A stretch of 64,000 nt of DNA from Alphaproteobacteria bacterium. Its GTDB lineage: Bacteria; Pseudomonadota; Alphaproteobacteria; Rhodobacterales; Rhodobacteraceae. Where the stretch lies: positions 145,282 to 209,281 of the forward strand of contig JAAAPD010000003.1 of assembly GCA_009908505.1 (NCBI GenBank), read 5' to 3'. The notes below the pieces were generated by a model, which did not search any database, was not told where the DNA came from, and saw only the letters and a program-made list of their open reading frames with translations. A program made the translations under genes and the position numbers. Shown one piece after another: positions 11,416-64,000 of this stretch. Every line of letters begins with the position of its first letter. Positions within the stretch are counted from its first letter, which is position 1.

Positions 11416-11512
11416 CCTTTCTGGTCCGGATCGCGGGTAAGGACTGCCCCGGCAATGGCCGCTGGGGGCGACGGTGCGGCATGCGAATGGCGGCCAAAAG
11501 CCCAAAACAGCC

Positions 11513-11544
11513 GAATGCTGCACGGCGCCCGAGCGCCTGCATTC
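11513..11544. terminator. Stem-loop downstream of the RND operon
   Basis: Outer arms GAATGC/GCATTC and inner arms GGCGC/GCGCC with loop CCGA form a two-part hairpin about 100 bases after the RND permease stop. There is no U-tract, so a Rho-independent terminator is uncertain; it may be a transcript 3'-end or boundary hairpin before the ArsR gene. Confidence 0.35.
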
Positions 11545-11605
11545 CGCGGTGATATTCGTCGGTTTATACATTGTTAGATAGCTTTTTATCGATTAGTAGG
11601 ACTTC

Positions 11606-11911
11606 ATGACGGATCGACTCTCTCAATCAAAGGCGCTGGCGAATGAGCACCGGCTTGCGATTCTTGACTGGCTCAAGGACCCGCAAAAGCACTTCGGGCA
11701 TCAAGAAAGCGGCGATCCCGGCGAAATCGGGGTCTGTGTGACGTTGTTCGTGGAAAAGCTGGAGATGAGCCAGCCCACGGTGAGCAGGCATCTGGAGCTG
11801 CTGCAGCGCGCCGGGTTTCTGCGCGTTAGCCGCGTCGGGCGCTGGTCCTATTTTTCGCGCGATGAGGACGCCCTTGCGGGATATCGGAGATGGTTGAATG
11901 ATACCCTTTGA
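11606..11911 (+). CDS. ArsR/SmtB-family winged-helix regulator
   Basis: A 101-residue DNA-binding protein. It begins with the ArsR signature KALANEHRLAILDWL, has a recognition helix in EMSQPTVSRHLELLQRAGFL and a wing (VSRVGRWSYFSRDE). The single Cys (GVCVTL) does not make a classical metal site (no CxCxxC), so a metal-sensing role is doubtful; many such proteins sense other cues. Upstream DNA (11550-11600) is AT-rich, unlike the surroundings. The gene overlaps the following hydrolase gene by 14 bases, suggesting that the regulator controls its own two-gene operon. Confidence 0.88.
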   Translation: MTDRLSQSKALANEHRLAILDWLKDPQKHFGHQESGDPGEIGVCVTLFVEKLEMSQPTVSRHLELLQRAGFLRVSRVGRWSYFSRDEDALAGYRRWLNDTL

Positions 11912-12803
11912 CGAGATGGATCGGAAGCTGCTGCCGCAGTTCGAGCGCCGGACAGTTGCGACCGCCGACGGCCCTGTCCGCGCGCTTGTCGCCGGGAAGG
12001 GTCCGCCGCTTCTGATGTTGCATGGCGACCCGCAGACACATCTATGCTGGCATCAGGTCGCACCAGCACTGACAGCGACGCATACCGTTGTCCTGACTGA
12101 TCTCAGAGGGCGCGGCGAAAGCCACAAGCCCGGGCCGACGGATGACCATGAACCGTACTCCAAACGCGCCATGGCGGCGGAACAACTTGCGGTGATGCAG
12201 GCTCTCGGGTTCCGTCGGTTTTCCGTGGCGGGTCATGACCGAGGCGCTCGTGTCGCTCGGCGCATGGCGCTCGATCATCCGCAGAGCATCGAAAAGCTCG
12301 TCGTCATGGACATCGTCCCAGCCATCGATCTCTACGAAAACACGACCGCGGCGGTTGCGCAGGACTATTTCTACTTCTTCTTTCTGACCCAGCCACACCC
12401 GATCGCAGAGAGCCTGATCTCAGGCGATCCCCAGACCTTCATGGGGCAAATCCTGACCGGGCTGCCCGGCGCGACCGTGCCCTTCGATTCGGAGGCGCTG
12501 GAACTCTACATCAAGTCTTCTTCGCGGCCCGAGTCGATCACCGCCATGTGCGAATGTTTCCGCGCAGGCCGCACGCTCGACGTGAAAGCCGATGCGGCGG
12601 ATCGAGCGAACGGTCGAAAGATCGAGTGCCCCACGATGGTCGTCTGGGGAGCGAGAGGCGTTGTCGGACAGTGCTTTGACGTGACGTCTATCTGGTCGTC
12701 CTGGGCACCTGACGCTCAGTTCGAGCCGGTCGATTGCGGTCACTTCATCCCCGAGGAGGCGCCCGAGCACGCCGTCCGGTTGATCAAGTCGTTTCTAGGC
12801 TGA
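11898..12803 (+). CDS. Alpha/beta hydrolase of the haloacetate/fluoroacetate dehalogenase family
   Basis: A 301-residue enzyme (295 if the ATG at 11916 is used, which would avoid the overlap with the arsR-like gene). Family motifs are clear: HGDPQTH oxyanion region, DLRGRGES, nucleophile elbow GHDRGAR (Asp114, with Arg115 and Arg118 in the carboxylate-binding positions), VMDIVP acid (Asp138) and CGHFIPEE (His282). In fluoroacetate dehalogenase from Rhodopseudomonas palustris a His-Trp pair 45-46 residues after the nucleophile helps bind fluoride; here the aligned residues read Tyr159-Phe160. A C-F bond-cleaving role is therefore unlikely; a related hydrolase or chloro/bromoacetate role remains possible. 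Confidence 0.85.
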   Translation: MIPFDEMDRKLLPQFERRTVATADGPVRALVAGKGPPLLMLHGDPQTHLCWHQVAPALTATHTVVLTDLRGRGESHKPGPTDDHEPYSKRAMAAEQLAVMQALGFRRFSVAGHDRGARVARRMALDHPQSIEKLVVMDIVPAIDLYENTTAAVAQDYFYFFFLTQPHPIAESLISGDPQTFMGQILTGLPGATVPFDSEALELYIKSSSRPESITAMCECFRAGRTLDVKADAADRANGRKIECPTMVVWGARGVVGQCFDVTSIWSSWAPDAQFEPVDCGHFIPEEAPEHAVRLIKSFLG

Positions 12804-12927
12804 ACTCGGATACTTCACCGATAAGTGCTTCTCAGCACGCCAAAAAATCATCACGAGGAGTCGTACAAAGCCGACCTTGGCTCGGCATCGAAAGCGGTCT
12901 GCTTCGTCCCGCCACGCCGCCTTTCGA

Positions 12928-14748
12928 TCAAGCCGCCCGCTCCTCGGCCTGCTGGCGGGCCCAGAGCCGGGCATAGCGCCCGGCGCTCGACAATAGCGCG
13001 TCATGGGTGCCCTGTTCGACGATCTCGCCCTTTTCCAGCACCACGATACGGTCCGCATCCGCGATGGTAGAGAGGCGATGCGCGATGGTCAGCACCGTGC
13101 GGCCCTGTCCCATCGCCTTGAGCTCGGACTGGATGTCGCGCTCGGTATCGGTGTCCAGCGCGCTCGTCGCCTCGTCCAGCAGCAGGATCGGCGGGTTCTT
13201 GAGAAGGGTCCGGGCGATGCCCACGCGCTGTTTCTCGCCGCCAGAAAGTTTCAAACCCCGTTCGCCAACCTGCGTGTCATAGCCCCCGGGCAGGCCCGTG
13301 ATGAAATCGTGGATCTTGGCGGCCTTGGCCACCGCGATGATCTCGTCCTCGCTGGCCCCGTCCCGGCCATAGGCGATGTTGTAGCGGATCGTGTCGTTGA
13401 ACAGCACCGTGTCCTGCGGCACCACGCCGATCGCCTCGTGCAGGCTGTCCTGTGTCACGTCGCGGATATCCTGGCCGTCGATCCGGATCGCCCCGCCCGA
13501 GACATCGTAGAACCGGAACAGCAGGCGCCCGATGGTGGACTTGCCCGATCCCGAGGATCCCACGATGGCCACGGTCTCGCCCCCCGTTACGGTCAGCGAC
13601 ACGCCCTTGAGGATGGCCCGATCAGTGTCGTAGCCAAATGAAACCGTGTCAAAGGCCACCTCTCCGGATTTCACATTCAGAACCTTGGCGCCGGGCTTAT
13701 CGGACACATCAGACGGTTGCTCTAACAAATCGAACATTTCGCCCATATCGACCATGGCCTGGCGGATTTCCCGGTAAACCGAGCCGAGGAAGTTCAGCGG
13801 CATGGTGATCTGGATCATGTAGGCGTTGATCATGACGAAATCGCCGGTGGTCAGCGTGCCGTTCTGCACCCCGAAGGCGGCCATCACCATGACCAGGACC
13901 AGCCCCGTGGTGATCACGAAGGCCTGGCCGAAGTTCAACAAGCCCAGCGTGTAGGCGGTCTTGAGCGCCGCGGTCTCGTAAAGCGCCATGGCCCCGTCAT
14001 AGCGTCTGGCCTCACGCGACTCGGCGCCGAAATACTTGACGGTCTCGAAGTTCAGCAGGCTGTCGATGGCCTTCTGGTTGGCGTCGGTGTCCTGCTCGTT
14101 CATCTCCTTGCGGATGCGCACGCGCCATTCGGTCACCTTGAAGGTGAAATAGATATAGATCGCGATGGTCACGGCCACCACGCCCACGTAGCTGAACCCG
14201 AAATGCCACAGCAGGATCACCGCGATCATCATCAATTCGAGGATCAGCGGCCCGATGCTGAACAGCAGGAAGCGCAGCAGGAAATCCACGCCTTTGACCC
14301 CGCGCTCGATGATCCGGCTGAGGCCCCCGGTCTTGCGGGTGATGTGATAGCGCAAGGACAGGCGGTGGATATGGGTGAAGGTCTCCAGCGCCAGTTGCCG
14401 CAGCGCGCCCTGGCCCACCTTGGCGAAGATCATGTCGCGCAGCTGCTGGAACCCGTTGGTCATCAGCCGCGCCATTCCATAGGCCACGGTCAGCCCCACT
14501 GCGCCCAGCGCGAGCAACATCGCGTCGCCCGCCTCGCCCGACAGCGCATCGACAACCAGCTTGTAGAGCATCGGCCCGACCACCGCGACCAGCTTGGAGG
14601 CGAACAGCGCCATCATGGCCAGCACCACGCGGCGCTTCACCCAGGGCTTGTCGTCCGGCCACAGATAGGGGGCGACCCGGCGGATCACGTTCCAGCCCTC
14701 GATCGGCTGGTCGTTCAGGTTGGCATCGGTTTTGGGCAGGCGGCGCAT
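12928..14748 (-). CDS. Atm1/HMT1-type ABC exporter (fused permease and ATPase)
   Basis: A 606-residue half-transporter. An N-terminal six-helix domain (residues about 40-320, starting RRVVLAMMALFASKLVAVVGPMLYK) is followed by the nucleotide-binding domain: Walker A GSSGSGKST near 394, signature LSGGEKQR near 500, Walker B ILLLDEATSALD, H-loop IAHRLST. The ABCB-type features and PYLWPDDKPWVKRRV start match bacterial relatives of mitochondrial Atm1, which export glutathione- or thiol-bound compounds and help with metal tolerance. It lies 64 bases after coxE on the same strand and may be cotranscribed with moxR-coxE. Confidence 0.9.
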   Translation of the reverse strand: MRRLPKTDANLNDQPIEGWNVIRRVAPYLWPDDKPWVKRRVVLAMMALFASKLVAVVGPMLYKLVVDALSGEAGDAMLLALGAVGLTVAYGMARLMTNGFQQLRDMIFAKVGQGALRQLALETFTHIHRLSLRYHITRKTGGLSRIIERGVKGVDFLLRFLLFSIGPLILELMMIAVILLWHFGFSYVGVVAVTIAIYIYFTFKVTEWRVRIRKEMNEQDTDANQKAIDSLLNFETVKYFGAESREARRYDGAMALYETAALKTAYTLGLLNFGQAFVITTGLVLVMVMAAFGVQNGTLTTGDFVMINAYMIQITMPLNFLGSVYREIRQAMVDMGEMFDLLEQPSDVSDKPGAKVLNVKSGEVAFDTVSFGYDTDRAILKGVSLTVTGGETVAIVGSSGSGKSTIGRLLFRFYDVSGGAIRIDGQDIRDVTQDSLHEAIGVVPQDTVLFNDTIRYNIAYGRDGASEDEIIAVAKAAKIHDFITGLPGGYDTQVGERGLKLSGGEKQRVGIARTLLKNPPILLLDEATSALDTDTERDIQSELKAMGQGRTVLTIAHRLSTIADADRIVVLEKGEIVEQGTHDALLSSAGRYARLWARQQAEERAA

Positions 14749-14812
14749 GGACGGGTCCTTGTGGCAAGGCCTCTTAAGTAGGAGCGTTGGCCCGCAATGA
14801 CCAGAGCCGCCC

Positions 14813-16060
14813 TTAGATCATCCGCATCATCCGGGCTTTTTCCCCGGCATCCGCCGGGTCCGACAGGGCCTTTGCCAGCCCGTCCAGCGCGGTGATGTTG
14901 TGGCCCGCCCGCAAGGCATCCACATGGGGCAGCATCTCGCGGATGCCGCGCGCCTTCGGGGCGAACTCCTCCCAGCGCAGCAACGGGTTGAGCCAGATCA
15001 GCTGGCGACAGGACAGGCCCAGGCGTTCGACCTCGCGCCCCAGCGCACCGGTGTCGTCGCGGTCCAGCCCGTCGGTGATGAGCAAAACCACGGCACCCTG
15101 CCCCAGAACCCGGCGCGACCAGTCCCGGTTGAATTCGTGCAAGCAGGCGGCGATGCGGGTGCCGCCCTCCCAGTCCTGCGCCTCGGCCCCGGCGCGGGCC
15201 AGGGCCTCGTCCACGTCGCGGGCGCGCATGTGACGTGTGATGTTGCTCAGCCGCGTGCCGAAGGTGAAGGCATGAACGCGCGCCCAGCCCTGGCCCTTTG
15301 CATTGCTGATCGCGTGGACGAAATGCAGAACGGCCCGGGAATATTGCGACATCGACCCGGATATATCGCACAGAACGACCAGGTTCGGATAGCGGATGCG
15401 GCGGCGGCGCGTCTCGAAGGCGCGGATCTCGCCGCCATTGCGCATGGACCGGCGCATGGTGCGGCGCCAATCGGCCAATGGCCCGGCCAACGCCTCGGTG
15501 CGGCGGGATTTCACCGGGCGCACCGGCAGGGTCAGGCGCGCCAGTATCCGCTTGGCCCGGGCCATCTCCTCGGTGCTCATCTGTTCGAAATCGAGGGTCC
15601 GCAGCCGTTCCTCGGCGGAAATGGTGGCCGAGGCATCGATTTCGATCAGAGTTTCCTCGCCCGCCTCCTCGCTGTCCGGGCGGTCCGGCTCGATCCCGTC
15701 CAGCAGCGCCTCGGCCGCGCGTTTCTCGGCCGGTTTGGCCAGTTCCTCTTCCTGCACGCCGCGAATGGCGGGCAGCATCATGGACATCATCTGTTCAAGA
15801 AACCGCGGATCGCGCCAATACAGGCGAAAGACCTGCCCGAAGACTCGCAGGTGTTCGGGCCGCGAACAGAAACAGGCCTGGAGCGTCCAGTAGAAATCCT
15901 GCTTCTCGGAGAATCCCGCCACCTCGACCGCGCGGATCGCGTCGATCACCCGTCCCGGCCCCACCGGCAGCCCCGCCTTGCGCAGCGCGCGGGCGAAATG
16001 GGTGATGTTGCGCGCCAGCTTGCCATCCTCGGGCAGGTCGAGCGGGGGATAGTCCACCAT
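14813..16060 (-). CDS. CoxE-like VWA domain protein
   Basis: A 415-residue protein of the CoxE family. The N-terminal helical half is acidic (LLDGIEPDRPDSEEAGEETLIEIDA). The C-terminal von Willebrand A domain starts with YPNLVVLCDISGSMSQYS, giving a complete MIDAS motif DxSxS near residue 230, followed by GGTRIAACLHEF and LLITDGLDRDD. It is paired with a MoxR-type AAA+ ATPase with a 1-base overlap (TGATG). Such pairs act as chaperones that insert cofactors or remodel protein complexes; in the carbon monoxide dehydrogenase cluster CoxD/CoxE do this, but no such cluster is in this window. Confidence 0.9.
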   Translation of the reverse strand: MVDYPPLDLPEDGKLARNITHFARALRKAGLPVGPGRVIDAIRAVEVAGFSEKQDFYWTLQACFCSRPEHLRVFGQVFRLYWRDPRFLEQMMSMMLPAIRGVQEEELAKPAEKRAAEALLDGIEPDRPDSEEAGEETLIEIDASATISAEERLRTLDFEQMSTEEMARAKRILARLTLPVRPVKSRRTEALAGPLADWRRTMRRSMRNGGEIRAFETRRRRIRYPNLVVLCDISGSMSQYSRAVLHFVHAISNAKGQGWARVHAFTFGTRLSNITRHMRARDVDEALARAGAEAQDWEGGTRIAACLHEFNRDWSRRVLGQGAVVLLITDGLDRDDTGALGREVERLGLSCRQLIWLNPLLRWEEFAPKARGIREMLPHVDALRAGHNITALDGLAKALSDPADAGEKARMMRMI

Positions 16061-32273: not shown

Positions 32274-33062
32274 ATGCGCATTCTCATCACCAATGACGAC
32301 GGGATCAACGCGCCGGGCCTGGCGGTTCTGCACGACATTGCGACCCGGATCGCGGGGCCCGAGGGCGAGGTCTGGACCGTGGCCCCCGCCTTCGAGCAAT
32401 CCGGCGTCGGGCATTGCATTTCCTACACGCACCCCACCATGATCGCCGAGCTGGGCGAACGCCGCTTCGCCGCCGAGGGCTCGCCCGCCGATTGCGTCTT
32501 GGCGGGGATACACGACGTGATGGTCGATGCGCGGCCCGATCTTGTCCTTTCCGGCGTCAACCGCGGCAACAATGCCGCCGAGAACACGCTCTATTCCGGC
32601 ACGGTGGGCGGCGCGATGGAAGCGGCCCTGCAAGGCCTGCCCGCCATCGCCCTGTCACAGTTCTACGGCCCCGCCAATGCCAGCCTGCCCAACCCGTTCG
32701 AGGCGACCGCCGGTCACGGCGTGGCCACGATCCGCGCCCTACTTGACCGCGCCCATTGGGACAACGGCGTCGATTACCGCCTGTTCTACAACGTGAACTT
32801 TCCCCCAGTCCCGGCCGCCGAGGTCAAGGGGATGCGCGCCACGACGCAAGGCTATCGCGCCAACACGTCCTTTTCCGTGGAACCGACCCATTCGCCCTCG
32901 GGCCGGCGGTTTCTTTGGATCAAGGGCGGCGCCCAGCACGAGCCAACCGCGCCGGGTAGCGATGCGGCGGCCAATCTGGACGGCTATATCTCGGTCACAC
33001 CCATGCGCGCGGACCTGACCGCCCATGACCATATCGCCGCCCTGAAGGAGGCGCTGGAGTGA
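32274..33062 (+). CDS. surE: 5'/3'-nucleotidase SurE
   Basis: A 262-residue metal-dependent phosphatase acting on nucleoside monophosphates, linked to stationary-phase survival. The N-terminal [13 protein letters not shown] has the metal-binding Asp pair, with [13 protein letters not shown] and [28 protein letters not shown] following, as in the family. It overlaps pcm by four bases (GTGA). Confidence 0.97.
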
Positions 33063-33694
33063 CCCCCGAAGAGCAGATGCAGTTCGTCTACGCGCTGCGC
33101 TCCAAGGGGGTGACGGATGCCCGCACGCTGGTCGCGATGGAACGCACCGACCGGGCGCGGTTCGTCAAGGGCCATTTCGCCGACCGCGCCTACGAGGACA
33201 TGCCCCTGCCCATCGCCTGCGGCCAGACCATCAGCCAGCCGTCCGTCGTCGGGCTGATGACCCAGGCGCTAAACGTGCAGCCCCGCGACAAGGTTCTGGA
33301 AGTCGGCACCGGGTCCGGCTACCAGGCTGTGATCCTGAGCCACCTGGCGCGGCGCGTCTACACGGTGGACCGGCACAAGCGGCTGGTCCAGGAGGCGCGC
33401 AAGCTCTTCGACGAGATGGACCTGACCAATATCACCGCCATCACCACCGATGGCAGCCACGGCCTGCCTGAACAGGCGCCTTTCGACCGCATCGTGGTGA
33501 CCGCTGCGGCCGAGGACCCGCCGGGGCCGCTGCTGGCGCAGCTCAAGCCCGGCGGCATCATGGTCCTTCCCGTGGGCCAGTCGGACGCGGTGCAGTCGCT
33601 GATCCGCGTGACACGCACCGAGGACGGGTTCGACTACCAGGAATTGCGCCCGGTGCGCTTCGTGCCGCTTGTTGAGGGCTTGGGCGCCGATTGA
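33059..33694 (+). CDS. pcm: Protein-L-isoaspartate O-methyltransferase
   Basis: A 211-residue SAM-dependent repair enzyme for damaged Asp/Asn residues. It has the family N-terminal region with [24 protein letters not shown], the SAM motif [15 protein letters not shown] and the [12 protein letters not shown] strand. The start is a GTG within the surE stop. surE-pcm-nlpD is a widely conserved order. Confidence 0.96.
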
Positions 33695-53772: not shown

Positions 53773-54381
53773 TTACAGCCCCTGCCCCGGTTTCACGTCT
53801 TTCAATTCCATCGCCTTGGCTGGATCCCGATACATCTGGGCCAGGATATCCTGGCGCTTAATGTGGGTGCGGTGGCGCAGCGTCAGGACGATGGCCCCGA
53901 TCATGGCGACCAGCAGGATCAGACCGGCAAGCTGGAACAGGATGAAATACTTGTCATAGATCAGTAGCCCCAGCCCGGCGGTGTTCTGGATGCCGCCCTC
54001 GACCGGGGCGGCCAGGCGGCCCTGCGCCCCCTCGTCAAAGCCCCAGGCGCCAAATGCGATGGCCAGCTGCATCAGAAGGATCACGCCGATCACCAGCGCC
54101 AGCGGCATGTATTTCGCCATCTCGGCCTTGAGCTCGGAAAAGTCGACATCCAGCATCATGACCACGAAGAGGAACAGAACCGCGACCGCGCCGACATAGA
54201 CGATCATCAGCAGCATCGCGATGAATTCGGCCCCCAGCAGCACGAACAGGCCCGCCGAAGACAGGAAGGCCAAGATCAGCCAGAGGACCGAATGCACGGG
54301 GTTGCGGCTTATGACGGTCATCAGCCCGCCCGCAAGCGTCGTGGTCGCGAAGGCATAGAATGCCAGAATCATGGGTGTCAT
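53773..54381 (-). CDS. nuoJ: NADH-quinone oxidoreductase subunit J
   Basis: A 202-residue membrane subunit with five helices; the third helix holds the conserved [22 protein letters not shown]. It starts within the stop codon of the CMD-like gene (ATGA overlap), so it is coupled to that inserted gene, not directly to nuoI. Confidence 0.96.
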
Positions 54382-54776
54382 GTGTCACCGTCCTTTTCCA
54401 TGACGTCGCTGGCGATTTCCATCGCCTTTGTCATTGCCGGAACGCCGCCGAACATCCCCGCAAGGGCAATGGTTTCGGCCACCTCCTGTTGTGTCGCGCC
54501 AGCCTCGAGCGCGTGGCGCAATGTCAGCCTGATCTGGGCCTCGGCCTGGGCGCCCATGATGGTCAGCCCCTGAAGCGTCAGCATAAGCCGCGTTTTCGAA
54601 TCCAAACCGTCGGGGTTGAACCCCTTGCCCATGGTCGCTTCCATCAGGTCGCGGGGCATGGTGGGGAACAGGGCCTCGAACCCTTTGGGCGTAAACGACT
54701 CAAGCGCGGGATTGAGCGCCTTGGCCCAATCCTGCCCGGCCTTCATCATGGCCTCGAAGGGATTGTCGCTGCTCAT
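54378..54776 (-). CDS. Carboxymuconolactone decarboxylase (CMD)-like protein inserted between nuoI and nuoJ
   Basis: A 132-residue helical protein of the CMD/AhpD superfamily. It has the fold pattern [65 protein letters not shown]. It contains no Cys, so the AhpD CxxC redox site is absent, and the usual His is Ala (ETIALAGMF). It is coupled on both sides by four-base overlaps (nuoI stop, nuoJ start), so its dosage tracks complex I. Enzymatic role unknown; an assembly or structural role is possible. The start is set at ATG 54776; the longer frame in the track lies in nuoI. Confidence 0.88.
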
Positions 54777-55267
54777 CGGTAGGGGGCGTCCAGTTCGAGG
54801 TTCCGGGCGATCTCGGCTTCCCAGCGGTCGCCGTTGGCCAGCAGCTTCTCCTTGTCGTAGTAAAGCTCTTCGCGGGTCTCGGTCGAGAACTCGAAATTGG
54901 GCCCCTCGACGATGGCATCCACCGGGCAGGCCTCTTCGCAGAAACCGCAATAGATGCATTTCGTCATGTCGATGTCATAGCGGGTGGTCCGGCGGCTTCC
55001 ATCCTCGCGCGGTTCGGCGTCGATGGTGATGGCCTGGGCCGGGCAGATCGCCTCGCACAGCTTGCAGGCGATGCAGCGCTCTTCTCCGTTGGGATAGCGG
55101 CGCAGGGCGTGTTCCCCGCGAAAACGCGGCGAAAGCGGGCCCTTTTCATGCGGGTAGTTGATCGTCGCCTTGGGCGCGAAGAAGTAGCGAAGGCCCAACT
55201 TGAATCCCTTCAGGAAGTCCACCAGCAGGAAGTATTTCGCAGCCCTCGTATAGTCCATCTGGGTCAT
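54773..55267 (-). CDS. nuoI: NADH-quinone oxidoreductase subunit I
   Basis: A 164-residue ferredoxin-type subunit that carries clusters N6a and N6b. Two 4Fe-4S motifs: [12 protein letters not shown] and [12 protein letters not shown]. The N-terminal [23 protein letters not shown] anchors it to the membrane arm. Start at ATG 55267, one base after the nuoH stop; the track start is 23 codons too long. Confidence 0.97.
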
Positions 55268-55268
55268 A

Positions 55269-56309
55269 TCAGCCCCCCATCGCGTAGCGGGCCCAGAAGG
55301 ACCCGAGGATTTCGAACTTGGCCAGGAACGCCACAAGCACCACCCAGGCCAGGCTGAACGGCAGGAAGACCTTCCAGCCCAGGCGCATCAGCTGGTCGTA
55401 GCGGTAGCGCGGCGTGATCGCCTTGACCATCGCGAAGATGAAGAAGAAGACCCCCATCTTGAGCACCAGCCACATGACCCCGTCGGGCAGGCCCGGAATG
55501 GGCGACAGCCAGCCACCGAAGAACAGCAGCGACACCAGCGCACACATCAGAAGGACCGACATCAGCTCGCCGATCATGAACAGCAGGAACGGCGTCGAGG
55601 AATACTCGGTCTGGTAGCCCGCCACCAGTTCCGATTCCGCCTCGGGCAGGTCGAAGGGCGGGCGGTTCGTCTCGGCCAGGGCCGAGATGAAGAACAGGAA
55701 GACCATCGGGAAATGCGGTAGCCAGTACCAGTTGAAGATACCATAGGCCCCGTCCTGCGCCGCGACGATCTCGCCGAAATTAAGCGACCCGGTCGAAATG
55801 ATGACACCCACGATGATCAGGCCGATGGAAACCTCGTAGGAAATCATCTGCGCGGCCGAGCGCAACGAGCCAAGGAACGGGTATTTGGAATTCGACGCCC
55901 AGCCGCCCATGATGACGCCATAGACTTCCAGCGAAGAGATCGCGAAGACATAGAGAATGGCCACGTTGATATCGGCCAGGACCCAGCCATCGTTGAACGG
56001 GATCACCGCCCAGGCGATCACCGCCAGCACGAACGTGATCATCGGCGCCATGAGGAAGACGAACTTGTCCGCCCCGGCGGGGATCACCACCTCCTTGAAG
56101 ATGTACTTGATGAAGTCGGCAAAGCTTTGCAGCAGGCCAAAGGCGCCCACGACATTGGGCCCCCGGCGCATCATGACCGCGGCCCAGATCTTGCGGTCGG
56201 CCAGCAGCAGAAAGGCCAGCGCCACCAGCAGCGGCACCAGCACCAGAAGGCACTGGCCGATCACCAGCAGCACGATCCCGAGATTTGTGGTTGTGAAGAA
56301 CTCGACCAT
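55269..56309 (-). CDS. nuoH: NADH-quinone oxidoreductase subunit H
   Basis: A 346-residue membrane subunit that forms much of the quinone site, with eight helices. Motifs: [32 protein letters not shown] and [26 protein letters not shown]. Start at ATG 56309; the track start adds 22 codons from the adjoining lipoprotein gene. Confidence 0.97.
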
Positions 56310-56319
56310 TGATGTCCCC

Positions 56320-56694
56320 TCAGACCGTCGGGATGCCGTTTCGCCCGCATTCGGCGACGGCAACCTCGGCGTCAATCGTTCTTAGCCCATCCGGCAAGGC
56401 CGGGGAAATCGTGTAGACCGCGTCCCCCGTCCAGAGTCTGCCGTCCTGTTCAATCTGTGTGCGGACATGGCGGGCAAAGCCGTATCCGCGGATCAGTGCA
56501 TATTGCGCGGCGGCGCATTCGGCATAGCGCGCCACCTGGTCCCGGCCTTCGGGGTTCTCCACGCGCACCAGGAAATTCACCAGGTCACCGTCCAGCAGCC
56601 GGGTTTCGACCCCCGCATAGCGCATCGCACCGCCCTGGGCAGTGCTCTCGCAGCCCGCCAGCGCCATCGCCGCTATGAGACCCGCACGACCCAT
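56320..56694 (-). CDS. Small lipoprotein inserted between nuoG and nuoH
   Basis: A 124-residue predicted lipoprotein: [17 protein letters not shown] ends in a lipobox (LAGC, Cys near residue 15). The mature part is small and soluble with two further Cys ([10 protein letters not shown] and VAECGRNG) that could form a disulfide. It begins four bases after the nuoG stop and ends ten bases before nuoH, so it is expressed with complex I but would act outside the cytoplasm. No named domain recognised. Confidence 0.8.
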
Positions 56695-56698
56695 AAGC

Positions 56699-58684
56699 CT
56701 ATTCCGCCGCCAACGTGGCGCTGGCCCGCGCCTTGGTATCCGCCGAAAGCTGCGCCATTAGCTCGCTGGCCCGCGCGATCGGGTTGGTCAGGTAGAAATC
56801 CTTGATCGCGTTCCGGAAATCCGCCTTGCCCAGCGTTTTGGACTTGAGCGGCTGCCAGTCGTTTTCCGGCACCTCGTCGATGAATTCCAGGTGCGGAACC
56901 TCGGCCACCAGCGCCTGGCGCAGCTGGGCCAGCGAATCCCACGGCTGTGTCGCGTCCAGCTCGGCAGACAGGGCGCGCAGGATGGCCCAGTTTTCCTTGG
57001 CCTCGCCCGGCGCGAACCCGGCCCGGAGCGCCAGTTGCGGGCGCCCTTCGGTGTTCACGAACAGCCCCTGTTCTTCGGTATAGGCGGCGCCCGGCAGGAT
57101 GACGTCGGCGCGGTGCGCGCCCCGGTCACCATGACTGCCCTGGTAGATGACGAAAGCGCCCTCGGCGATCTCGACCTCGTCGCCGCCAAGGTTGTAGACC
57201 ACGTCGGCGCCGTCGATATCGGCCATGCCATTGGGGGCCACGGCGCCCGCATCCATGGCGCCCACCCGCGCGGCGGCGGTGTGAAGCACCAGCATCCGGC
57301 CCGACAGCCCCATGGCGGCGGCCAGAACGGCCTCGCCATCGGCCTCGGTCAGCGCGCCCTGGCCGACGATCACGATGGTGTCCTCATCGGTCTTGGCCGT
57401 GGCCAGCGCCGCCCGGTCGGTGCCCAGGTGCTCGTATTCATAGGTCAGGTCCACGGACTGGCCGACCAGGGCGACATTCGCCCCTTTGAGCCAGGCCTTG
57501 CGGATACGGGCATTCAGAACCGGCGCCTCGTCACGCGGGTTGGTGCCGACCAGCAGGATGGACCTGGCATCGTCGATCTCTTCGATGGCGACATTGCCGA
57601 CATAGCCCGACCGGTTGCCGGCTGGCAGCTTCGCCCCATCGGTGCGGCATTCCACGACACCGCCCTGCCCTTCGATCAGCTGCTTGAGGCCATAGGCCGC
57701 CTCGACCGGGGCAAGATCGCCCACGAGACCGGCCAGTTTGGACGCGCCCTTGATCTTGCCGGCGGCCACGGACAGCGCCTCGGGCCAGGTCGCGGCGCGC
57801 AGCTTGCCGTTTTCCCGGACATAGGGCCGGTCAAGCCGCTGGCGCCGCAGCCCGTCCCAGACGAAACGCGTCTTGTCGGAAATCCATTCCTCGTTCACGC
57901 CGTCATGGTTGCGCGGCAGAAAGCGCATGACCTCGCGCCCCTTGGTGTCCACCCGGATGCTCGACCCCAGCGCATCCATCACGTCGATGGATTCGGTCTT
58001 GGTCAGTTCCCACGGGCGGGCGGTAAAGGCATAGGGCTTCGACACCAGCGCGCCCACCGGGCAAAGGTCGATGATGTTACCCTGCAGGTTCGAATCCAGC
58101 GTCTCGCCCAGATAGGCGGTGATCTCGGCATCCTCGCCACGGCCGGTCTGGCCCATCTGGTGAATGCCCGCGACCTCGGTCGTGAAGCGCACGCAGCGGG
58201 TGCAGGAAATGCAACGGGTCATATGGGTTTCGACGAGCGGGCCGAGATCCAGGTCGTCCACCGCGCGCTTGGGTTCGCGGAAGCGGCTGAAATCCACGCC
58301 ATAGGCCATGGCCTGGTCCTGCAGGTCGCATTCGCCGCCCTGGTCGCAGATCGGGCAATCCAGCGGATGGTTGATCAGCAGGAATTCCATCACCCCCTCG
58401 CGGGCCTTCTTGACCATGGGGGAGTTCGTCTTGACCACCGGCGGCTGACCTTCCGGGCCCGGGCGCAGGTCCTTGACCTGCATCGCGCAGGAGGCGGCGG
58501 GCTTGGGGGGGCCGCCCACGACCTCGACCAGGCACATGCGGCAGTTGCCGGCAATGGACAGACGTTCGTGATAGCAGAAACGCGGGATTTCGATGCCGGC
58601 CTCTTCACAGGCCTGGATGAGCGTCATCGCCCCCGGCACCTCGATTTCCTGACCGTCGATAATGACCTTGCGCAGATCGGACAT
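56699..58684 (-). CDS. nuoG: NADH-quinone oxidoreductase subunit G (75-kDa type)
   Basis: A 661-residue iron-sulfur subunit of the peripheral arm. N-terminal 2Fe-2S motif [21 protein letters not shown], the His-Cys3 motif [18 protein letters not shown] and a 4Fe-4S motif [14 protein letters not shown] lead into a molybdopterin-oxidoreductase-like domain. The length matches mitochondrial and alphaproteobacterial forms, shorter than E. coli NuoG. Of two adjacent ATG codons (58690, 58684) the second is better spaced from AGGGA. Confidence 0.96.
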
Positions 58685-58782
58685 GGGCATTTCCCTGTAG
58701 CCGTTTGCGTCCCGGATTGCCTTGGGCCGACCCGGGGCGGTTGCAGGGCGTTCTAACGCGGGACGCCTTGGTTTGCCAGCGC

Positions 58783-58804
58783 TTCCCGGGCAAAAAACCG
58801 GGAA
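58783..58804. repeat. Inverted repeat between the DUF5333 gene and nuoG
   Basis: TTCCCGG and CCGGGAA form a perfect 7-bp stem with an 8-base loop. On the operon strand the loop is T-rich and no U-run follows the stem. It may be a processing or stability element in the leader of nuoG; the 171-base gap is one of the widest inside the nuo run. Confidence 0.4.
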
Positions 58805-58855
58805 AAATCGGCGCGAACCGGGCCGCTTGACCGAGTGTTTTGGTCGGGATTTTCC

Positions 58856-59251
58856 CTAGCGCAACAGGCGCCCGATCTGGGAACCTGCCACGATCTCGCG
58901 CCGGCCCACGTCACAATAGGTTTCGGGCTCGCCGTCCACGGCGCCCATATCGGCCAGCCGCGCCCGGGCGATGGCCTCCAGCCGGTCAGCCTCTTGCTTG
59001 TCGTCGATATAGGCATCAACCTCGTCGCGGCTATAGCCGATCTCCAGCGCGTGCCGTTCCAGCGACAACAGGAAGCCCAGGCCGCGCAGGGTGCGCGCCC
59101 GGATCGTGTCGCACACCTCGCTGATCTCGTAGGCGATGCCGGTGTTGATCAGCCCCTCGGTGATGCGGGGCACTTCGCTCAGGGGCGGTTTCGCCGCCAG
59201 CGGCGTCGCAACGAGCGTCAGGCCAAGGGCCAGGGCGGGAATCGGTTTCAT
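58856..59251 (-). CDS. Secreted DUF5333-like protein in the nuo operon
   Basis: A 131-residue protein with a signal peptide (MKPIPALALGLTLVATPLAA, cleavage after about residue 20). The mature part, PPLSEVPRITEGLINTGIAYEISEVCDTIRARTLRGLGFLLSLE, is helical with two Cys (EVCDTI and ETYCDVG) likely in a disulfide, as expected in the periplasm. I associate it with the DUF5333 family of Rhodobacteraceae; function unknown. Start set at the ATG directly before the signal peptide, 56 codons inside the track ORF. Confidence 0.8.
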   Translation of the reverse strand: MKPIPALALGLTLVATPLAAKPPLSEVPRITEGLINTGIAYEISEVCDTIRARTLRGLGFLLSLERHALEIGYSRDEVDAYIDDKQEADRLEAIARARLADMGAVDGEPETYCDVGRREIVAGSQIGRLLR

Positions 59252-59363
59252 GTCGATCGGCCTCTTTTTAACGTGGGACGCGCCCCCGTCCGTTGCCCAA
59301 GAGGTCGCCCTTGCGCGGCTGATATTCAATAGCGCGGCCACGATCGGGCCCGAAACGGCGGAT

Positions 59364-59852
59364 TCAGGCGCAGGACCGGGTCTTCCACATCTCGGCCCGC
59401 GACAGGTCGGCCCAGCCAAAGGCGCGGTCGGATGCGCCGTGCGCGCGGTAATGGGCCAATCGGTCCAGCGCCTCGTCCAGGGTCGGGCGATGCCCCTCTT
59501 CCACCCACCACATGACGAAATGCTGGTCGCCCATCACCTCGAACCACTCGCGGCGCCGGTCGTAGAACTGCTTGTGAATGGTGCCGAAAACAAAGCGTTC
59601 CAGGCTTGCGACGTCTTCCCAGACGGTCAGGTTGGCGACGAACTGCGGATCATCCCCGATGCTGTTCTCGGTATTGCCGGTGCCCGGCTCGCCCGAGCCT
59701 TCCATCATCCAGACGAATCCCGGCATGCGTTTGCCAAGGCCATTCACCCTGTCGAGATTGTCCATGAACTCCTTGACCCGCGGGTCGTCCGTGGGGGCCA
59801 GAAGGCGCCCGACATTCAGTTCGGCGAGGTGAAAGTGGGGCGCATCGGACAT
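59364..59852 (-). CDS. DUF3291-family protein
   Basis: A 162-residue protein with the family pattern FHLAELNVGRLLAPTDDPRVKEFMDNLDRVNGLGKRMPGFVWMM, then NLTVWEDVASLERFVF and HFVMWWVEEGHRPTLDEALDRL. It resembles antibiotic-biosynthesis-monooxygenase-type ferredoxin-like folds, but no enzymatic activity is established. The gene starts nine bases after the stop of the zinc-ribbon miniprotein. Confidence 0.85.
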   Translation of the reverse strand: MSDAPHFHLAELNVGRLLAPTDDPRVKEFMDNLDRVNGLGKRMPGFVWMMEGSGEPGTGNTENSIGDDPQFVANLTVWEDVASLERFVFGTIHKQFYDRRREWFEVMGDQHFVMWWVEEGHRPTLDEALDRLAHYRAHGASDRAFGWADLSRAEMWKTRSCA

Positions 59853-59861
59853 GGGATACTC

Positions 59862-60056
59862 TCAGGTAAAGATCAGGATAAAAAAGAGGATAGGCACAAG
59901 GCAGGCGAGTGCAAAGACCGCAAGCGCCAGCCAGCTGAGCCGCCGCTCCAATGCCTTGTATTTCGAGGGTGGTTCTCCGACGAGACCGCACTCCGCGCAA
60001 GCCCGGCCTTCGGGGTAGGGTTTCGCCCCGCAAGACGGGCAAGTGTTGGGCCGGAT
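59862..60056 (-). CDS. Zinc-ribbon membrane miniprotein without a standard start codon
   Basis: A frame of about 64 codons missed by the ORF track because it has no ATG, GTG or TTG at its head; the in-frame stop lies about 15 codons further up. It encodes two CxxC pairs (NTCPSCGAK and RACAECGLV) followed by a membrane helix (LSWLALAVFALACLVPILFFILIF), a zinc-ribbon-plus-anchor design common in Rhodobacteraceae. The coordinate end is set at ATC (60054-60056), where related proteins would plausibly read MRPNTCPSCG; initiation at ATC, a lost start or a sequencing error are the options. Confidence 0.5.
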   Translation of the reverse strand: MRPNTCPSCGAKPYPEGRACAECGLVGEPPSKYKALERRLSWLALAVFALACLVPILFFILIFT

Positions 60057-60116
60057 CGGAGATACCGCCCAACCATCACGCCGCCCTGGATATCCTCAGG
60101 AGCATTCGTCTCCGGC

Positions 60117-60527
60117 TCACGATCCTAACGGGACAAAGACGAAATCACCCCAGAACTCGTAGGTTGAGGTCCCGATAGTTTGGGTGCCGCTGACCGTGTT
60201 TTCCCCCAGCTCGACGGTATAGAGTGAAGCGATGGCCGAGGGCGCCCGCGCAAGGAGGTCTCGATGGTCTGTCGTTCGCAGCCTCTGGCCTGCGGCGTTG
60301 GTACAGATCAGAACGGACTGGTCCACCGCACCGCGGGCCGAGATTCCCTTACCCATGATGTTCTGGTTGCCGGACACGGTGATATCGGGGCCGCTGAACT
60401 GGCAATCTGCCGAGCGGGGAACGCCCAGCAGGAGGCTCTGTTCACCGGGGGCGAGGGGTTCCCCGCCGAGACAACCGGCCAAAACTAGGAAGGCGGCCGC
60501 GGCCGCGAGTGGGCTTCTGAAATTCAC
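60117..60527 (-). CDS. Small lipoprotein between nuoF and the DUF3291 block
   Basis: A 136-residue predicted lipoprotein; MNFRSPLAAAAAFLVLAGCLGG ends in a lipobox (LAGC, Cys near 19). The mature part has two Cys (ADCQFSG and LICTNAAG) and a beta-rich appearance (TVELGENTVSGTQTIGTSTYEFWGDFVFV). No family recognised. It starts 28 bases after the nuoF stop. Confidence 0.78.
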   Translation of the reverse strand: MNFRSPLAAAAAFLVLAGCLGGEPLAPGEQSLLLGVPRSADCQFSGPDITVSGNQNIMGKGISARGAVDQSVLICTNAAGQRLRTTDHRDLLARAPSAIASLYTVELGENTVSGTQTIGTSTYEFWGDFVFVPLGS

Positions 60528-60555
60528 GAAAACAGTCCTTTCAACAGTTTACTTG

Positions 60556-61836
60556 TTACTCCGCCGCGATGGCCTTGCCCTTTACGCGGTCCTCGATCTC
60601 GTCGCGGAAGTTACGGATCAGGCCCTGGATCGGCCAGGCCGCCGCGTCGCCCAGCGCGCAGATCGTGTGGCCTTCGACCTGCTTGGTCACGTCCCAGAGC
60701 ATGTCGATTTCCTCGACGCTGGCCTCGCCCTTAACCAGGCGGTCCATAACGCGCATCATCCAGCCGGTGCCTTCGCGGCAGGGCGTGCACTGGCCACAGC
60801 TTTCGTGCTTGTAGAATTTCGACAAGCGCCAGATCGCCTTGATGATGTCGGTCGACTTGTCCATCACGATCACCGCCGCGGTCCCAAGGCCCGAGCCCAG
60901 CTCGCCGCGCAGGTAATCGAAATCCATGATCGCGTCTTTCATGTTCTCGCCGCGCACGCAGGGTACGGACGAGCCGCCGGGAATCACCGCCTTGAGGTTG
61001 TCCCAGCCACCGCGAACCCCGCCGCAATGCTTCTCGATCAGTTCCTCGAAGGAGATGCTCATCGCCTCTTCGACGACGCAGGGGTTGTTCACGTGACCCG
61101 AGATCGCGAAAAGCTTGGTGCCCGCGTTGTTCTGGCGGCCGAAACCGGCGAACCATTCCGGGCCGCGACGCAGGATGGTCGGGACAACCGCGATCGATTC
61201 GACGTTGTTCACGGTGGTCGGGCAACCATACAGCCCCGCGCCCGCCGGGAACGGCGGCTTCATGCGCGGCATGCCTTTCTTGCCCTCGAGACTTTCCAGC
61301 AGCGCGGTTTCCTCGCCGCAGATATAGGCCCCGGCCCCATGATGCAGGTAAAGGTCGAAATCCCAATCACTGCCGGCGGCGTTCTTACCCAGAAGGCCCG
61401 CGTCATAGGCTTCGTCGATGGCGGCTTGAAGCGCCTCGCGCTCACGGATGTATTCGCCGCGGATGTAGATATAGCAGGCATGCGCATTCATCGCGAAACT
61501 GGCGATCAGGCAGCCCTCGATCAGCGTATGCGGATCGTGGCGCATGATCTCTCGGTCCTTGCAGGTGCCCGGCTCGGATTCGTCGGCATTGACGACAAGA
61601 TAGGCCGGGCGACCGTCGCTTTCCTTGGGCATGAAGGACCACTTCAGCCCTGTCGGAAAACCGGCGCCGCCGCGTCCGCGCAGGCCGCTGGCCTTCATCT
61701 GGTCCACGATCCAGTCGCGGCCTTTCTGGATGATCCCCGCGGTGCCGTCCCAATGGCCACGGGCCTGGGCGCCTTTCAGCGTCCGGTCGTGCATGCCGTA
61801 GATATTGGTGAAGATGCGGTCCTTGTCTGCAAGCAT
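60556..61836 (-). CDS. nuoF: NADH-quinone oxidoreductase subunit F
   Basis: A 426-residue flavoprotein that takes electrons from NADH. FMN/NADH motifs [16 protein letters not shown] near residue 60 and [23 protein letters not shown]3 cluster motif [12 protein letters not shown] near 345. Start at ATG 61836; the track adds 26 codons. Together with NuoE and NuoG it forms the NADH dehydrogenase module. Confidence 0.98.
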
Positions 61837-61873
61837 CGGCGGGTTCCCTATCCTGCCCCTGTCGGGGTGCACC

Positions 61874-62092
61874 TCATTTCTCGCGGGTCTTTTGCCAGAG
61901 TTTGAACGTGACAACCAGACACCAAATGAACCCCGCCAGCGCGAAGAGCGTCAACAGCACCGCGAAGCGCGGGGCGAGGCCCAGCGCATCGACGATGGCG
62001 GGCGCGAACATCGACAGAAGCGCCGAGGCCACCATCACGAGGGCGATCCGGCGGCCGGCGGCGGCAATGGCGTGTCTGTCCTGATCGGCCAA
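61874..62092 (-). CDS. Small two-helix membrane protein (DUF5337-like)
   Basis: A 72-residue protein with two membrane helices ([22 protein letters not shown] and [21 protein letters not shown]) and a basic C-terminus. I associate it with the DUF5337 family, found next to nuo genes in Rhodobacteraceae. It sits 37 bases upstream of nuoF and seven bases after the Lys/Ala/Pro-rich gene. Function unknown. Confidence 0.75.
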
Positions 62093-62099
62093 ATCGATC

Positions 62100-62762
62100 C
62101 TACTGTTTATCTGTCTTCTTCTCCGGGGCGGGCATGGCGGCCAGCGTCACGGACCCTGTCTTACCAGTGTTGGATTTGGCTTTGTAGACCGTGGTTTCAA
62201 CCTTCTTGGACGACCTGCTGCCCTTGGCCGCAGGCTTCGATCGCGTTTTGCTGGCCGTCGCGGTTGCGGATTTCGGCTTTGCCTTGGCGCGCTTGGCCGT
62301 CCCCCCCGCCTTGGTCGTACCTGGGCGCGACGCGGCCTCTGGCTTGGGTGCTGGGTCCGAACCTGCCGCAGGTTCCGGCGTCGCGGCCGGCCCTGCTGCC
62401 TTGGTCTTGGACGCGGCTTTGGGGGCCGGCTTGGCGGCGGACTTGGGCTTGGACGCGGTCGGCTTGGGGGCCGCGGGCTTGGCCGGATCGGGCGCCGCGG
62501 TCCGCGCGGCAGGCTTGGGATCCGGGCGCTTGGCTTTATCGGCGGCCTTGGCAGGCTTGGGTTGCGCCGTGGTCCCGGTCTTCTGCGCCGGCTCGGCCGC
62601 CGGCATGATCGCCCGTGGACGCAGCGCCACCGCGGCGGGCGCAACGGCCCATTTCACCAGGCTGGCCTGACTGGCCAGCATGGCCGCGGCAGGGGCCGAG
62701 GATTGCAGCCCAAGGCGCAGCATCGCATTCGGCAAGGTCACCAGGGAGTCGGAGGAGAACAT
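62100..62762 (-). CDS. Lys/Ala/Pro-rich low-complexity protein in the nuo operon
   Basis: A 220-residue protein. A short N-terminal region with hydrophobic patches (MFSSDSLVTLPNAMLRLGLQ, ASQASLVKWAVAPAAVALRP) is followed by about 160 residues of repeated A/P/K-rich sequence (KPAAPKPTASKPKSAAKPAPK, KTKAAGPAA), resembling histone H1 tails or the linker of TonB-like proteins. No catalytic domain. The start at ATG 62762 is spaced about nine bases from GGAAAGG. The reading frame is real by position and spacing, but low complexity makes its homology uninformative. Confidence 0.65.
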   Translation of the reverse strand: MFSSDSLVTLPNAMLRLGLQSSAPAAAMLASQASLVKWAVAPAAVALRPRAIMPAAEPAQKTGTTAQPKPAKAADKAKRPDPKPAARTAAPDPAKPAAPKPTASKPKSAAKPAPKAASKTKAAGPAATPEPAAGSDPAPKPEAASRPGTTKAGGTAKRAKAKPKSATATASKTRSKPAAKGSRSSKKVETTVYKAKSNTGKTGSVTLAAMPAPEKKTDKQ

Positions 62763-62891
62763 CGCAAACATCCTTTCCGGGTCCGTCACGAACCCGTTGT
62801 CATGATCCGCGCCGATCCTCCCCGATCGGTGCAAGTCGGCCTGCCCACGTCACGCCGGGCAGGTCGATTGTTGCACTGCAGCATCCATCTT

Positions 62892-63611
62892 TCAATAGAC
62901 GTCGCCCTTTTTCACCTTGTCCGAAAAGTCGGTTGTGCCGCCCTTGGCAAGAACCTTGGCCTGCTTGACCCATTCGTCGCGACTGACACGGCCCTTGAAG
63001 CCTTCGAGGTTCTGATCCACCCATTCGACCTCTTTCTTGCGCCACCCGGCGATCTGGTCGAAATGGTAGACACCCATCGAGTTGAGCAGCTTTTCCAGCT
63101 TGGGTCCGACACCCTTGATCTGCTTGAGATCGTCAGCACCGCCTTCGCGCGGCGCGCTCAGCATCTCGGGCTTGCCGTCCGCGGCCACGGGCTTGGCCGC
63201 CGGTTTGGGTTTTTCCGCCTGCATGGGCGTCTCGGGCTCTGCCGCCTTCTTCGCTTCGGCCGGGGCCGCGTCCGCCGGCTCGGGCTTGGGCATCGGCGCG
63301 GGGTCCGGGGCCGGTGGGGCCACCGTGGCGGCTCGGGTCGCAGCCGCGGCCGAGGTCGGCTCCGAACGGGGCGACGGGTCCTTCGCATGGGCGTCCGCGC
63401 CTTGCCGGGACATATCCTGGCCTCCGGTCGCCGCCGCGCCATTGCCGCCCATCATCAGCAGCCACCAGACGATCACGCCGATGATGACGCCGATCAAGAA
63501 CGAGAGGAAGCCCCCGAAATCGATGCCGAACCTGGCGATCGCGAAGGCCACGACGCCACACAAAATCGCGATGATGATCGCGAAAGTCGATCCGATTGGT
63601 CTGTCACTCAT
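62892..63611 (-). CDS. Membrane-anchored protein with the NuoE-tail HHH-like domain
   Basis: A 239-residue protein. Two N-terminal membrane helices (FAIIIAILCGVVAFAIARF, residues about 10-28, and FLSFLIGVIIGVIVWWLLMM, 35-54), a Pro/Ala/Lys-rich linker to about 157, and a C-terminal domain that begins GADDLKQIKGVGPKLEKLLN, a helix-hairpin-helix-like motif, and continues YHFDQIAGWRKKEVEWVDQNL. The same domain ends the adjacent NuoE, with about 44 of 67 aligned residues identical by eye. The start is supported by GGGAAAGG. Likely a complex I accessory or assembly protein; inferred from context only. Confidence 0.85.
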   Translation of the reverse strand: MSDRPIGSTFAIIIAILCGVVAFAIARFGIDFGGFLSFLIGVIIGVIVWWLLMMGGNGAAATGGQDMSRQGADAHAKDPSPRSEPTSAAAATRAATVAPPAPDPAPMPKPEPADAAPAEAKKAAEPETPMQAEKPKPAAKPVAADGKPEMLSAPREGGADDLKQIKGVGPKLEKLLNSMGVYHFDQIAGWRKKEVEWVDQNLEGFKGRVSRDEWVKQAKVLAKGGTTDFSDKVKKGDVY

Positions 63612-63783
63612 TGGTCTACCTTTCCCTGTCGTGACTGTCCGGCCTGCGGACAGCGAGCATGGGTCGCGGGCTCATGCCCCGACCTTGACAACAGCTTAGG
63701 CAGACACGCCGCGTTTGATAAGGGACTTAATCGGTGCCGGCGGCGATGTTGGCATTCTGGCCACGCCGAAGGTGGCCACTGCC

Positions 63784-64000
63784 CTATTTTTCGGCAAGCT
63801 TGCGGGCCTGTTCGACCCAGTCGTCCCGTTCGATCCGGCCCTTGAACTTCAGGCGGCTATCGACCCAGGCGATCTCTTGGGGACCCCATTTGGCGATCTG
63901 GTCGAAATGCCAGAAGCCCATTTCATTCAAAACGCCCTCCAGCTTGGGGCCCACGCCCGTAATCTGCTTGAGGTCATCGGCCCCGGACATGCGCGGCGCT
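63784..64000 (-). CDS. nuoE: NADH-quinone oxidoreductase subunit E, C-terminal extension (rest outside window)
   Basis: The frame is open to the window edge, so the ATG at 63990 given in the track is probably internal. Upstream codons read APR, matching the APREGGADDLKQ junction of the neighbouring membrane-anchored protein. The visible 71 residues are an HHH-like domain (SGADDLKQITGVGPKLEGVLNEMGFWHFDQIAKWGPQEIAWVDSRL). Rhodobacteraceae NuoE proteins carry such a tail after the thioredoxin-like 2Fe-2S domain; position before nuoF supports nuoE. A free-standing small protein cannot be excluded. Confidence 0.75.
   Translation of the reverse strand, partial: APRMSGADDLKQITGVGPKLEGVLNEMGFWHFDQIAKWGPQEIAWVDSRLKFKGRIERDDWVEQARKLAEK

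Follow-up and report, generated by a model that had tools for sequence, protein, structure and literature searches.

Reading frames between nuoF and nuoG in a Rhodobacteraceae genome as the probable present content of a family-wide operon slot with DUF5333 as its resident gene

The complex I gene clusters of Paracoccus and Rhodobacter contain unidentified reading frames (URFs) between the nuo/nqo genes, and the nuo operon in the 64,000-nucleotide stretch of Rhodobacteraceae DNA analyzed here (the window) has several frames of this kind between nuoF and nuoG. What are these frames, and do they belong together? An earlier note, made from the letters of the window, had described them as a four-gene accessory block of the complex I operon with mostly exported products. 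Our best reading, to which we assign a probability of about 0.75, is that the block represents what currently fills a slot at a fixed address in the nuo operon, in which DUF5333 is the resident, complex I-linked gene, and not a four-part module. The features of the interval are collected in Table 1.

Table 1. Reading frames between nuoF and nuoG in the window, with the two genes that border them
Feature	Position	Strand	Remark
nuoF	60556-61914	-	upstream border of slot
Lipoprotein, 136 aa, GTG start, lipobox LAGC at Cys19	60117-60527	-	near-orphan; no Pfam or NCBIfam family
Zinc ribbon and one hydrophobic segment	59862-60095	-	open stop-to-stop frame without usable start codon
DUF3291 protein, 162 aa, cytoplasmic, antibiotic-biosynthesis-monooxygenase-like fold	59364-59852	-	PF11695, E 1.7e-49
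DUF5333 protein, 131 aa, signal peptide, all-helical, two invariant Cys	58856-59251	-	PF17267, E 4.1e-35; slot resident
nuoG, ORF of 663 aa	56699-58690	-	downstream border of slot

The presence of four reading frames between nuoF and nuoG was confirmed, and all of them lie on the nuo strand. Codon statistics favoured the lipoprotein, DUF3291 and DUF5333 frames as genes, and each of these begins with an ordinary start codon; genes were called and signal peptides assigned with simple purpose-written scripts, and the window genome is a draft that is 92% complete. Regarding export, the description as mostly exported applies to two of the four products, the lipoprotein and DUF5333, as the DUF3291 protein carries no signal peptide. 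The Cys pairs that had also been pointed out are present in DUF5333 (C27 and C93 of the mature protein) and in the lipoprotein (C42 and C75), while DUF3291 has no conserved pair. An Rfam search of positions 56000-64000 gave no match to an RNA element, and sites for a promoter or terminator of its own were no more numerous within the block than in shuffled sequences. A phage or defence origin was considered and set aside: PHROG matches were marginal (E 0.02 or worse), and PADLOC gave one generic 2OG match, which belonged to a gap gene of another genus.

The two frames next to nuoF are near-orphan passengers. The lipoprotein has a bacterial lipoprotein signal sequence with a lipobox ending in Cys, MNFRSPLAAAAAFLVLAGC, and its only relatives were found at loci L114 and L146, which represent one species; the lipobox Cys is conserved in the relative, and C42 and C75 are also common to both. 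It was absent from 117 of the 119 family gaps described below and from three other genomes of the window's genus. When 84,980 species genomes were searched with two peptide patterns only, one record was returned, which is 99% identical to L114 over 15.7 kb, so that this record and L114 are one species. Homology of the lipoprotein to the other lipoproteins of the operon (families C2 and C4 and the one between nuoG and nuoH) was rejected, as only matches of signal-peptide length were obtained. The zinc-ribbon frame, which the earlier note took for a membrane miniprotein, has two CxxC pairs and one C-terminal hydrophobic segment, and there is no in-frame ATG, GTG or TTG ahead of the first CxxC when the frame is followed from its upstream stop; a short way upstream an ATG is present in a different frame. 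Codon usage of the frame weakly favours coding (+3.4 log units; the two remaining forward frames score −45 and −39), its match to the DZR profile is weak and below the cut-off, and among the 119 family gaps it was seen at the window locus and in one possible distant relative, L016. The missing start could reflect a frameshift or an assembly indel, the use of a rare start codon, or decay, and we regard the frame as an unproven gene. If it is translated, basic residues before the hydrophobic segment would place the ribbon in the cytoplasm by the positive-inside rule.

The nuoF-nuoG junction was then compared among 131 genomes of the family (Rhodobacteraceae-type), a set with nearly one genome per genus in which turnover within a genus is hidden. 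nuoF was found in 130 of the 131 genomes (E<=1e-120), and 140 operon loci were read, 20 of them from other Alphaproteobacteria. Of 120 family loci, 119 had nuoG downstream of nuoF and gave a readable gap, whose length was 1209 bp in the median (range 2-9178 bp) and exceeded 300 bp in 93% of the loci. The median gap in the other Alphaproteobacteria was 19 bp (15 of 19 loci at 3-76 bp; the rest at 489, 377, 805 and 250 bp). Within the family a near-empty state also occurs, seven members having a gap of less than 120 bp. By measuring all junctions from nuoD to nuoN, the extra DNA of the family was located mainly at D-E, E-F, F-G, G-H and I-J, and the K-N end was compact. At the locus L014, which belongs to the window's genus, three similar small secreted proteins stand in tandem upstream of nuoE (oriented 1384-2451).

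A codon-based call of genes of at least 40 aa in the 119 family gaps yielded 282 genes, which fell into 61 clusters, mostly singletons, and 276 of the 282 point in the same direction as nuo. Iterated profiles detected DUF5333 in 92 of the 119 gaps, the C2 lipoprotein family in 49, DUF3291 in 46 and the lipoprotein of the window in 2. Among the passengers of other genera are Methyltransf_24, MAPEG, EF-hand, pentapeptide, SnoaL, esterase and TM2 proteins. At L023 the nuo operon contains a sugar ABC transporter set with isomerase-like and oxidoreductase genes (oriented 9815-15991), which separates DUF5333 from nuoG. No transposase or integrase Pfam family was found among 46 representative gap genes. 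The contents are ordered: the usual arrangement is DUF3291 - C2 - DUF5333 - nuoG, and in 31 of the 33 loci that could be resolved DUF5333 is the one nearer to nuoG, with DUF3291 upstream of it. The junction combines conserved flanks, cargo that varies among relatives and an empty state in relatives, as in a fixed-address insertion slot; it is a family-wide slot, open in more than 90% of the genera, with small co-directional genes that change by genus.

Among these occupants DUF5333 stands out by its linkage. The protein of the window matches PF17267 with 120.7 bits (cut-off 27) over profile positions 1-110 of 110. We found 117 copies in the 131 whole genomes, and 117/117 are located downstream of nuoF on the same strand, or beside nuoG if the contigs differ; in other alphaproteobacterial families it was found in 0 of 60 sampled. 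The operon of locus L052 (genome G017) is split between nuoF and nuoG: nuoF is followed by trp-type genes, whereas DUF5333 has kept its place upstream of nuoG, on another contig. The distance from the DUF5333 stop to the nuoG start had a median of 54 bp and a lower quartile of −1, a quarter of the loci being at overlap distance. A detected copy was absent from 27 of the 119 gaps, where nuo is intact, and thus the gene is kept in 77% of the family gaps. C27 and C93 do not vary among the 86 sequences compared. AF2 models the protein as an all-helical bundle (pLDDT 97.9), and a known fold could not be assigned to it, as the best Foldseek match, Rap2a (E 2.3, TM 0.24), was unconvincing.

The DUF3291 protein matches PF11695 with 167.5 bits (cut-off 23.5), and of its 57 copies in family genomes 46 lie in the nuoF-nuoG gap, always in nuo direction. 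Its AF2 model (pLDDT 84) has a ferredoxin-like alpha+beta (ABM) fold according to Foldseek (prob 1.00, TM 0.46 by query and 0.71 by target), with SnoaB, YgiN and other ABM proteins as the best matches (E 6.6e-5 to 2.4e-4), and the conserved residues include H93 and several Trp. The protein thus resembles the dimeric alpha+beta proteins of the ABM type, although the identity is 7-17%, it has extra length and a Pfam family of its own, and the likeness is one of the model fold.

Inheritance of the three frequent families was evaluated against a FastTree tree of nuo. The number of parsimony changes was 9 for the C2 lipoprotein family (shuffled mean 38.0, minimum 27), 15 for DUF5333 (shuffled mean 24.5, minimum 18) and 30 for DUF3291 (shuffled mean 36.7, minimum 28). 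Mantel correlations with nuo distances were r = 0.34 (p 0.001) for DUF5333, 0.43 (p 0.001) for C2 and 0.01 (p 0.44) for DUF3291. The fraction of gene-tree signal explained by the nuo topology was 0.63, 0.58 and 0.34 for DUF5333, C2 and DUF3291 type A, respectively; since the nuo topology was formally rejected for all three, only their ranking is informative. DUF5333 is mostly inherited with the nuo operon and coupled to nuoG.

DUF3291, a frequent but labile occupant, we read as exchanged and lost at a fixed address, to judge from its sequence distances and its distribution: type A distances showed no relation to those of nuo (Spearman −0.09), and pairs with excess DUF3291 identity were found, although many of these include L105, one locus with divergent nuo genes, and so count less for exchange. 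An alternative is that the family ancestor already had DUF3291, DUF5333 and C2 together in its slot, that many losses of these genes followed, and that the orphans alone are new. The regular slot order would follow from such a history, and because of it the loss-alone reading stays viable for DUF3291; C2 and DUF5333 track the nuo tree, and the DUF3291 tree retains a partial nuo signal. On the other hand, DUF3291 is distributed almost at random over the tree, with distances that do not track nuo, C2 is limited to few clades as its 9 changes indicate, and many gene families are limited to one genus. We consider ancestral presence followed by loss to be rather unlikely.

Does the block nevertheless act as one unit, a dedicated complex I accessory module for assembly or for periplasmic redox quality control? 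Its four frames share a strand, are compact and sit between two complex I genes, two of the products are exported and carry Cys pairs, and the linkage of DUF5333 is absolute. However, a comparative map of the extra genes across Rhodobacteraceae, one of the kinds of check that the earlier note had proposed, found the full four-gene set in the window genome only, and the four genes have four distributions. DUF5333 and DUF3291 did not co-vary on the nuo tree: over 13 pairs their changes went the same way 1.9 times and the opposite way 4.2 times. Furthermore, one of the four is the zinc-ribbon frame, which has no start codon. A single four-gene module is thus very improbable. It had been said at the outset that content restricted to a strain or varying at random would mean passive insertion; by this measure the block fails as a module, and DUF5333, being in 92 of the 119 gaps, passes. 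What survives of the proposed accessory block is DUF5333 by itself, which on its nuoG linkage is the candidate complex I link among the four genes.

Comparison with complex I of known structure bears on what kind of link this may be. In the cryo-EM structure of the P. denitrificans enzyme, 17 known subunits and CI-PIMT were modelled (PMC11522691), and no solved PDB chain matched DUF5333 or DUF3291 by sequence; a role as subunits of the solved Paracoccus enzyme was rejected accordingly. Provided that P. denitrificans carries DUF5333 or DUF3291, the structure argues against a permanent complex I subunit. The supernumerary subunits of that enzyme (NDUFS4, NDUFS6, NDUFA12 and CI-PIMT; PMC11522691) are likewise lineage-specific alphaproteobacterial additions to the 14-subunit core; unlike them, DUF5333 and DUF3291 match no solved chain. 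The isoaspartyl methyltransferase encoded at 33059-33694 of the window was considered as CI-PIMT and rejected, as its hits were ordinary PIMT entries and included none from complex I. A search of the open literature on DUF5333, on DUF3291 in complex I and on the Paracoccus/Rhodobacter URFs returned nothing usable.

The same structural result would be expected if the slot genes, DUF5333 included, were neutral debris, that is, passive insertions on their way to being lost and devoid of complex I function, and the turnover of the content and unrelated passengers such as the sugar transporter set of L023 would fit this as well. Purifying selection argues the other way. In a rough comparison, in which L046, a truncated locus, enters several pairs and dS is high in many cases, dN/dS was 0.10, 0.10 and 0.23 in the few informative pairs of DUF5333 and about 0.14-0.22 for most pairs of DUF3291, well below 1, and both genes appear to be under purifying selection. 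DUF5333 is moreover kept in most gaps and never found elsewhere, and has an invariant Cys pair and a confident fold. That all slot genes are debris seems improbable to us.

In the preferred reading, that of a fixed-address slot with DUF5333 as resident, a gene that inserts co-directionally would leave nuoF and nuoG intact and would itself gain steady co-transcription, and insertions would therefore be tolerated. The conserved nuoF and nuoG may serve as homology arms, through which the whole or part of the slot contents could be swapped between related genomes and lost again. DUF5333 would be exported and form a periplasmic, disulfide-bonded helical bundle, and its part would be that of a lineage-specific factor in the biogenesis or stability of complex I, not that of a permanent subunit. 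A bolder version, which we put forward as speculation and think unlikely, is that DUF5333 is a family-specific periplasmic complex I factor, a disulfide-bonded helical bundle translated with nuoG and needed for assembly or stability, and that the slot is a platform on which genera exchange respiration-linked genes by nuoF-nuoG recombination.

Chromosomal integration hotspots are known for a fixed address and turnover of content, and the slot is like them in its conserved flanking genes, variable cargo and a position common to genera. It is unlike them in lying inside a highly conserved respiratory operon, in its small co-directional cargo and in the lack of any recombinase or IS family in the scanned gap genes. 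It is also like the URFs of Paracoccus and Rhodobacter, which likewise are additional genes without a known role that stand among the nuo/nqo genes of this bacterial group; unlike a fixed set of URFs, it consists of one resident and changing passengers, resolved by family over 119 genomes.

Other extra genes were noted in the same operon. A small DUF5337 membrane protein between nuoE and nuoF (61874-62092) has a member in 110 of 119 family loci and is therefore another candidate complex I-linked gene. A lipoprotein without Pfam family between nuoG and nuoH (56320-56694) and a carboxymuconolactone-decarboxylase-like gene between nuoI and nuoJ (54378-54815) were each found in 92 of 119 family loci. 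A C-terminal helix-hairpin-helix domain occurs at both 62892-63611 and 63784-63990, one small domain on unrelated proteins, and it matches models of the C-terminal part of NuoE, ribosomal L21, ribosomal S2 and phasin PhaH.

These results turn the vague notion of URFs in complex I operons into a testable split between a nuoG-tied DUF5333 and a turnover slot. As Paracoccus complex I serves as a genetic model of its mitochondrial counterpart (PMC8115037), a lineage-specific periplasmic complex I factor, if true, would be directly useful. The slot, if true, would represent a case in which genes turn over within an operon that is otherwise conserved, with no mobile elements visible.
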